Part shown: in pieces, positions 2,687 through 6,363 of the stretch | Numbering within the stretch: the stretch's first letter is position 1 | Layout of the letters: each line of letters starts with the position of its first letter | Assembly (NCBI GenBank): GCA_001803565.1 | Contig: MHDQ01000084.1 | Coordinates: 1-7,281 of the forward strand | Length of the DNA stretch: 7,281 nucleotides | Direction: 5' to 3' | Origin: Nitrospinae bacterium RIFCSPLOWO2_12_FULL_45_22 | GTDB taxonomy: Bacteria; 2-12-FULL-45-22 | Made by a program: the position numbers and the translations under genes | Notes under the pieces: generated by a model | Told to the model about the DNA's origin: nothing | What the model saw: the letters and a program-made list of their open reading frames with translations, nothing else | Database searches by the model: none

Positions 2687-2713
2687 ACCGCAAAGGCGCA
2701 AAGAACGCAAAGA
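2687..2713 (+). repeat. Solitary CAAAGG-type repeat, related to the inverted repeat at 5911/6338
   Basis: The 74-base gap between flippase and double glycosyltransferase contains a purine-rich unit with the core CAAAGGCGCAAAGA. Aligned with the reverse complement of the arm at 6338-6363 it matches 21 of 26 positions with one extra A; four of the five mismatches are A/G. Its orientation is that of the left arm at 5911. No open frame is attached to it. The gap otherwise holds only GAAAGG at 2725-2730 and AAAAGG at 2735-2740 as possible ribosome-binding bases for the next gene. I see no promoter or terminator. Confidence 0.6.
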
Positions 2714-5910: not shown

Positions 5911-5936
5911 GCCACAAAGGCACCAAGTCACTAAGA
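5911..5936 (+). repeat. Left arm of cassette inverted repeat
   Basis: This 26-base unit with the core CCACAAAGGCACCAAG is the inverted counterpart of 6338-6363 (23/26 identical; mismatches at the 14th, 18th and 22nd positions). It begins 12 bases after the radical SAM stop and ends 8 bases before the ATG of the GxxExxY gene, so its last bases (AAGA) include most of the only Shine-Dalgarno-like stretch, AAGAG at 5933-5937. Just outside, GCCTTT at 5903-5908 could pair with AAAGGC at 5916-5921 as a small alternative hairpin. Confidence 0.8.
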
Positions 5937-5944
5937 GCAGCATA

Positions 5945-6337
5945 ATGATATATGGGCCACTATCCGAAAGAGAAGAAGAGGTAGCTAGAAAGATTGTTGA
6001 CGCAGCTTACACGATCCACCGAATATTAGGACCAGGTTTGCTAGAAAAAGTGTATGAAGTCTGTTTTTGTCACGAGCTTTCTAAGAGAGAACTTTCTTAT
6101 CAAAGACAGGTTGACGTTACGATTGTATACGATGGTATTTCATTTGATGAAGGCCTGCGATTAGATGTGTTGGTTGAAGGACTGGTCATCTGTGAGCTCA
6201 AGGCTATGGATACCATAAACCCAGTATGGGAAGCACAGTTGTTAAGCCAATTAAAACTCACAGGCAAACGTCTCGGTTTTCTGATCAACTTCAATGTTCC
6301 CCTTATCAAAGACGGGATCAAGCGAATAATTTTGTAA
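5945..6337 (+). CDS. GxxExxY family protein (PD-(D/E)XK nuclease-like)
   Basis: A complete 130-residue protein, close to the usual size of the GxxExxY family (Pfam PDDEXK_3). The name-giving motif is at G31-E34-Y37 in GPGLLEKVYE, preceded by the expected helix AAYTIHRIL (20-28). A PD-(D/E)XK-like core follows: D74 in RLDVLVEG, then E84-x-K86 in VICELKA, then EAQLLSQLKLTG (96-107) and the closing LGFLINFNVPLIKDGIKRII (110-129). All presumed catalytic residues are present, so the gene looks intact. No signal peptide or membrane segment is seen. The biological role of the family is not established; the fold relationship suggests nucleic-acid cleavage, but this is prediction. The ribosome-binding site is weak (AAGAG at 5933-5937). 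The gene appears richer in A/T and in codons such as GTT and CTT than its neighbours, by eye. It is enclosed by an inverted repeat and is unrelated to glycan synthesis, which suggests independent acquisition. Confidence 0.88.
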   Translation: MIYGPLSEREEEVARKIVDAAYTIHRILGPGLLEKVYEVCFCHELSKRELSYQRQVDVTIVYDGISFDEGLRLDVLVEGLVICELKAMDTINPVWEAQLLSQLKLTGKRLGFLINFNVPLIKDGIKRIIL

Positions 6338-6363
6338 TCTTGGTGTCTTTGTGCCTTTGTGGC
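6338..6363 (-). repeat. Right arm of cassette inverted repeat
   Basis: The 26-base unit begins at the base immediately after the TAA of the GxxExxY gene and ends 16 bases before the ATG of the next glycosyltransferase. Its reverse complement, with the core CCACAAAGGCACAAAGACAC, matches the left arm at 23 of 26 positions. It is also closer to the solitary copy at 2687-2713 than the left arm is. It has no poly-T tract of the kind expected for an intrinsic terminator. Confidence 0.8.

Follow-up and report, generated by a model that had tools for sequence, protein, structure and literature searches.

A GxxExxY gene between inverted heptad arms as a putative minimal selfish cassette

Architecture of the locus

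The window, a 7,281-nt stretch of contig MHDQ01000084.1 from Nitrospinae bacterium RIFCSPLOWO2_12_FULL_45_22, carries genes whose profile matches indicate a flippase, two genes with GT2-type glycosyltransferase domains, a GT9-like gene and a B12-radical SAM gene. The latter had no match in the only other genome compared within the phylum (two genomes). Among these genes lies an intact GxxExxY gene (5945..6337, + strand) encoding 130 amino acids, with a PD-(D/E)XK fold and intact catalytic residues. It is enclosed by an inverted repeat (5911-5936 and 6338-6363), whose 26-nt arms are complementary at 23 of 26 positions (88%) and lie 401 nt apart. Eight bases separate the left arm from the ATG, and the right arm follows the TAA immediately. 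The original prediction had described this layout, with 26-base arms around exactly one gene, at the same positions. It had also placed the cassette between genes without breaking any, and inspection of the neighbouring genes confirmed that none was broken.

Both arms consist of three 7-nt units spaced by 8 bp. Specifically, the left arm (5911..5936, + strand) contains CACAAAG (5913-5919), CACCAAG (5921-5927) and CACTAAG (5929-5935), and the inverted right arm (6338..6363, - strand) contains CTTGGTG (6339-6345), CTTTGTG (6347-6353) and CTTTGTG (6355-6361), which read CACAAAG, CACAAAG and CACCAAG inward from the right end.

An additional solo arm of another word type, overlooked by the original prediction, was found at 2689..2712 (+ strand). 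It comprises three copies of CGCAAAG at spacings of 8 and 9 and is located 21 bp past the stop codon of the flippase gene, before the next glycosyltransferase gene. Its architecture equals that of the CGCAAAG arms of other GxxExxY genes (L033, L113, L137 and L243). No intact gene matching this CGCAAAG type was seen in this genome.

The GxxExxY protein and its distribution

The window protein is a clear full-length member of the TIGR04256/PF13366 family. It matched PF13366 (PDDEXK_3) with an E-value of 5.2e-37 and 127.2 bits (cut-off 22) and TIGR04256 (GxxExxY) with an E-value of 1.5e-39 and 135 bits (cut-off 35), covering profile positions 2-116 of 116. The names of both models state no function. 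The residues G31, E34, Y37, D74, E84, K86 and Q98, which are invariant or nearly so across the family, are all present. An AlphaFold2 model built with 60 relatives reached a mean pLDDT of 94.6 and a pTM of 0.87, and its nearest solved folds were Cas4 SSO0001 (Z 9.3), the Holliday junction resolvase Hjc, R.SwaI and BamHI. The predicted PD-(D/E)XK-like protein with intact motif residues was therefore borne out by profile matches, invariant residues and model fold. A sequence search of the PDB gave nothing significant, a PADLOC defence search returned a weak Cas4 match alone (E 0.016), and searches of PHROGs and Rfam gave no match.

GxxExxY genes were present in 90 of 389 diverse genomes, a patchy distribution, and are under purifying selection (dN/dS 0.03-0.35). 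At least 580 PF13366 places were found in one species-level scan. The window's genome holds 12 such places (four full-length copies, one N-terminally short copy and seven with the last third only), decayed remnants being among them. On mobile replicons the gene was scarce: none was found among 50,697 phages, seven among 72,556 plasmids and three loci among 2.9 million viral contigs. The genome of Tangfeifania diversioriginum (G404, the genome of L234) showed 17 PF13366 matches, mostly full length. At least six GxxExxY genes lie on one strand within approximately 41 kb of one chromosome in another genome (G135:C1:786477-827837).

Inverted arms accompany GxxExxY genes across phyla

For 135 full-length genes from 67 diverse genomes, the 300-bp flanks on either side of each gene were compared and their best inverted match was scored; many of the surveyed genomes are fragmented assemblies. 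Arms at a score of at least 30 were found at 98 of the 135 genes (73%), compared with 4.4% of mixed pairs and 1% of windows shifted by 700 bp, and the median flank-match score was 37 for real pairs versus 18 for mixed pairs. The genes are thus repeatedly bounded by arms across phyla, in support of the original prediction, and detectable arms were absent at about one quarter of them. In the window's genome, 11 of the 12 flank pairs of PF13366 places scored at least 25, the exception being a copy at a contig end. The inverted repeat around the window gene is real and beyond chance, and such repeats are found well past this locus.

The arms lie a median of 9 bp behind the stop codon of a co-directional upstream gene. 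A bias in orientation with respect to the upstream gene (39 versus 12) probably just reflects the usual co-orientation of neighbours and was given no weight.

Heptad words covary with the protein

Across loci, each arm repeats a 7-nt word, mostly C-R-C-N-R-A-(G/T/A), about three times in direct orientation, at a spacing of 8-10. The variants over 103 gene loci include CACAGAG, CGCAGAT, CGCAGAG, CACAAAG, CACGGAT, CACGAAT, CGCCGAT and CACTGAA; word extraction presumes the C-R-C-N-R-A frame, leaving out rarer designs. In 117 elements, heterozygosity between and within elements was 0.50 and 0.02 at word position 5, 0.40 and 0.05 at position 7, and 0.47 and 0.08 at position 2. Position 4 of the same units drifts (0.64 between and 0.36 within elements) and serves as a built-in control.

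Protein similarity tracks arm similarity between genomes (Mantel rho 0.27, versus a maximum of 0.12 in 1000 permutations). Relatives from several phyla with 54-81% identity to the window protein mostly have CACNAAG arms, like the window. At 125 non-redundant loci, residue 14 was associated with word position 5 (z 20.6; median column 0.8), with threonine corresponding to G (38/40), alanine to A (21/22) and glycine to A (15/18). At the same loci, glycine at residue 124 corresponded to G at word position 7 (94/97), and absence of this residue mostly to T (19/24). In a tree test, residue 14 was the best co-changing column for position 5, accounting for 11 of 25 word changes versus 3.6 expected (p 1.4e-4). 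Position 7 changes too seldom on the tree to be separated from clade, and its covariation with residue 124 mostly reflects the division between clades.

When held-out loci were predicted, the residue 14 rule was correct in 38 of 41 cases for T, A, S or a gap, and glycine at residue 14, for which the training set was too small, was mispredicted in 19 of 20. Overall, the rule was correct for 39 of 61 held-out loci against a baseline of 21. Where residue 124 was present, position 7 was G at 57 of 60 held-out loci. Because co-inheritance alone would not hold positions 2, 5 and 7 uniform while position 4 drifts, the simplest reading is that the protein recognises the word directly. From these patterns, we infer that the GxxExxY protein recognises the word of its own arms.

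Arms are dispersed without the gene

The check proposed with the original prediction, a search of the same genome for other copies of the arm, came out in its favour: the pattern CACNAAGNCACNAAG had 182 matches in the window's genome versus one for the reversed pattern. Among the arms listed in this genome, 20 neighbouring pairs faced inward and none outward, at distances of 34-418 bp, with the window gene inside the widest pair. Arms with a gene between them are the minority in this genome, which makes the palindrome, and not the gene, the abundant unit.

Between genomes, arm-pattern counts ranged from tens to approximately 1000. A high count of G-type arms was found in 29 of the 90 genomes with a GxxExxY gene versus five of the 299 without (Fisher p 7.5e-16; 389 genomes, the discovery genome being included), which agrees with the expected association between arms and GxxExxY genes. 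The T-type pattern gave the reciprocal picture, and G-type and T-type arms follow the type of gene (p 0.006). In Dolichospermum, the dispersed copies are single intergenic arms.

Turnover of cassettes at defined sites

Across 16 genomes from the genus Dolichospermum, three different cassettes were found at a single site between two convergent genes. Type A (arms CGCAGAG) was found in three genomes, type B (CGCAAAG) in five and type C, in the opposite orientation, in three; one genome has the palindrome only, and three have broken sites. The flanks are 96-98% identical, yet the cassettes are only 71-77% identical between types, compared with 89-99% within one type. Each type has its own arms, and six changes of cassette type were counted on the flank tree (11 genomes). 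The cassettes end approximately 25 bp beyond the left arm and approximately 8 bp beyond the right arm. Residues 14-15 are S-G in type A, A-R in type B and A-T in type C, consistent with G, A and A, respectively, at word position 5.

Among 120 Hymenobacter genomes, one site holds the gene with its arms in many species, a gene-less palindrome in others and nothing at all in others. Divergence of flanks and cassettes was also considered as proof of replacement in this genus; the cassettes do diverge faster, but this alone is insufficient.

In these genera, cassette and arms are gained, lost, swapped and inverted together, as a single unit. The proposal that the window cassette is a minimal mobile unit is therefore partly supported by its counterparts in other genera, where a given site may hold a cassette, lack it or have exchanged it for another.

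Target duplications and IS66-like tips

No clear general excess of target-site duplications was seen at the arm edges. Long flanking direct repeats exceeded the control through a few loci only (L108, 14 bp), and some of them are arm words or arrays. Sharp tips were found in derivatives within the window's genome, where the IS66-like tip sequences are GTAAGTATTCAG and GTAACCGTTCA. On contigs C64, C67 and C114 (loci L017, L018 and L053), the common tips GTAAGTATTCAGTAAACC are accompanied by 8-bp direct repeats (CTGTTGAT/CTGTTGAT, AGGATGCC/AGGATGCC and TATCCAGT/TATCCGGT, respectively). These three loci form an internally deleted family with only parts of the GxxExxY gene inside CACAAGAT arms, and they look like IS66-type MITEs carrying GxxExxY arms. 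A fourth derivative, the gene-less CACCAAG palindrome L352, has GTAACCGTTCA tips with AACACTTT on both sides.

In these four derivatives, GTAA..TTAC tips with 8-bp direct repeats thus lie outside the arms, a combination that IS66-family elements have. Tips with duplications were found at three of 14 arm pairs versus two of 182 mixed controls, and at gene-bearing loci GTAA tips with duplications occurred in two of 162 cases. Around the window's own arms, no clear tips were seen by eye.

Proposed mechanism and alternative explanations

We consider it probable, though far from certain, that the locus represents a minimal selfish cassette, in which a small PD-(D/E)XK protein and two inverted arms, each made of three 7-nt words that this protein recognises, spread and are swapped as a unit. 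The protein would bind the words as a multimer, with one subunit per word and a word about every helical turn (spacing 8-10 bp). Most likely, the protein bound to the heptads would then cut or nick at the arms, and repair of the break with a cassette or arm as donor would copy, swap or invert cassettes between palindromic sites, in a manner resembling homing or REPtrons; the step from recognition to movement is inferred. That both orientations are met at one site would follow from the symmetry of the palindromes. Internal deletions would leave gene-less palindromes and single arms. Several points weigh against the selfish cassette: arm edges show no general target-site duplication, no direct sign of cutting was seen, about a quarter of the genes lack detectable arms, and the Dolichospermum swaps could have spread through homologous recombination of the ordinary kind in the flanks, once the cassettes had inserted independently.

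The original prediction had named the nuclease-like product itself or a transposase in trans as the mover. The protein-arm recognition code and the palindrome-bounded swapping favour the own nuclease, and the 8-bp duplications with IS66-like tips support a transposase in trans for some derivatives. Both may operate, since the arms hold the protein's sites and transposons may pick the arms up. If the gene and its arms were only passengers of MITE-like elements with IS66-like GTAA...TTAC tips, moved in trans by an IS66-type DDE transposase, the protein would be otherwise employed, for example in protecting or regulating the element. The tips of the four derivatives and the enrichment at arm pairs over mixed controls suit such passengers. 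However, the two cases among 162 gene-bearing loci mean that this reading cannot explain the cross-phylum association of gene and arms, the covariation of residue and word or the Dolichospermum swapping, and no clear tips were seen by eye around the window arms; we regard it as unlikely. Less probable still is a domesticated protein, belonging to the host or semi-selfish, that binds or nicks specific sites and has dispersed operators. The two arms around its gene would then have a role in autoregulation, in transcription termination or in chromosome structure, and the spread of arms would be old or selected. Purifying selection, the strict recognition-like word, the dispersed intergenic single arms of Dolichospermum, the position of arms shortly behind co-directional stop codons and the near-absence from phages, plasmids and viral contigs all agree with it. 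Nevertheless, the patchy presence, the as many as 17 PF13366 places of a single genome, the complete lack of gene and arms at the same site in congeners and the decayed remnants look like selfish turnover rather than a host regulator. Arm counts from tens to about 1000 per genome also argue against it.

Another view is that the arms were there beforehand, as palindromic hot spots or terminators into which GxxExxY genes insert, with gene and arms correlated through co-inheritance but without recognition. Most palindromes in the window's genome indeed lack a gene, and co-inheritance alone would yield a correlation of protein and arms. In that case, however, the six units of an element should drift independently, whereas positions 2, 5 and 7 stay uniform within an element and position 4 drifts. 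The repeated residue-specific co-change of residue 14 with position 5 and the three cassettes at one Dolichospermum site, each with its own arms, also speak against hot spots, which we judge to be very improbable. A chance inverted repeat around an ordinary gene is refuted: approximately 1e-4 inverted repeats of 23/26 within 1 kb would be expected anywhere in the window, the same architecture occurs at about three quarters of relatives, and the arm pattern far outnumbers its reversed control.

A more specific form of the selfish cassette, to which we give slightly less than an even chance, would make GxxExxY proteins the enzymes of undescribed autonomous selfish elements of approximately 0.5 kb. 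Here a single PD-(D/E)XK nuclease would read a heptad code, with residue 14 setting position 5, the loop at 124 setting position 7 and position 4 unread, and would copy its cassette into cognate arms, having seeded many bacterial phyla with dispersed heptad-triplet repeats that have so far lacked an explanation. If true, a large family of unknown role would acquire a function and a natural history, and a class of dispersed intergenic repeats across phyla would be explained. A very small nuclease would also provide a protein-DNA recognition code that can be read, and PD-(D/E)XK alone would join the chemistries by which minimal elements and their non-autonomous repeats are known to spread.

Relation to known systems

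The literature searched, which left most subscription papers and preprints outside, so that an earlier description is possible, gave no description of arms or mobility for GxxExxY, PF13366 or TIGR04256, and the arm words were not found printed as a repeat in it. In the window's genome, some derivatives resemble the IS66 family and its MITEs in their GTAA...TTAC tips and in the 8-bp target duplications that lie beyond the arms. The cassette itself contains no DDE transposase, and the tips are missing at nearly all other gene-bearing loci.

Free-standing homing endonucleases include PD-(D/E)XK enzymes such as I-Ssp6803I. The cassette resembles them as a small nuclease gene that is inserted between genes and fills a site in some strains while being absent from others, and such presence and absence at one site among relatives was found in Hymenobacter (filled, palindrome-only and empty). 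In contrast to homing endonuclease genes, it has no intron or intein, and its arms travel with the gene as inverted flanks and occur in tens to about a thousand dispersed copies. Homing endonucleases recognise the uninterrupted target and cut it only when empty, and the swapping of occupied sites in Dolichospermum is unusual for homing.

The nearest system in behaviour is the REPtron, in which a TnpA_REP (RAYT) gene is accompanied by REP/BIME palindromes (PMC8266576, PMC3116915). Both have a single small chromosomal enzyme gene between inverted copies of a dispersed, co-evolved intergenic repeat, and both have solo copies and arrays of that repeat. However, TnpA_REP is an HUH enzyme whose substrates are single-stranded REPs folded into hairpins, with a conserved motif in front (PMC8266576), whereas the cassette enzyme belongs to the PD-(D/E)XK type and is not an HUH/Y1 transposase. 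The cassette arm is made of three direct heptads instead of a tagged hairpin, need not fold on itself and is single in Dolichospermum. The cassette is therefore analogous to the REPtron but unrelated, and by its enzyme and its lack of a hairpin it falls outside that group.

Arrays, nested families and other palindrome designs

At L072, L098 and L187, tandem arrays of gene-less palindromes lie beside GxxExxY genes, similar to BIME clusters of REPs. In the window's genome, CACNAAG arms were found inside cacggatgaacac arms and around aaacgtaaaacgcaaagc inner repeats (L004, L007 and L342); these nested palindrome families appear as if arms of different types insert into one another. Nine Hymenobacter loci (L402, L406, L407 and L409-L414) are gene-less palindromes of a wider-spaced design (CGCAAGG TTT CGCGAGG ...), which are perhaps the arms of a related, undetected protein. 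An extreme expansion of dispersed arms was observed in G202, a 4.1-Mb genome with 1027 T-type arm matches versus one for the reversed control.
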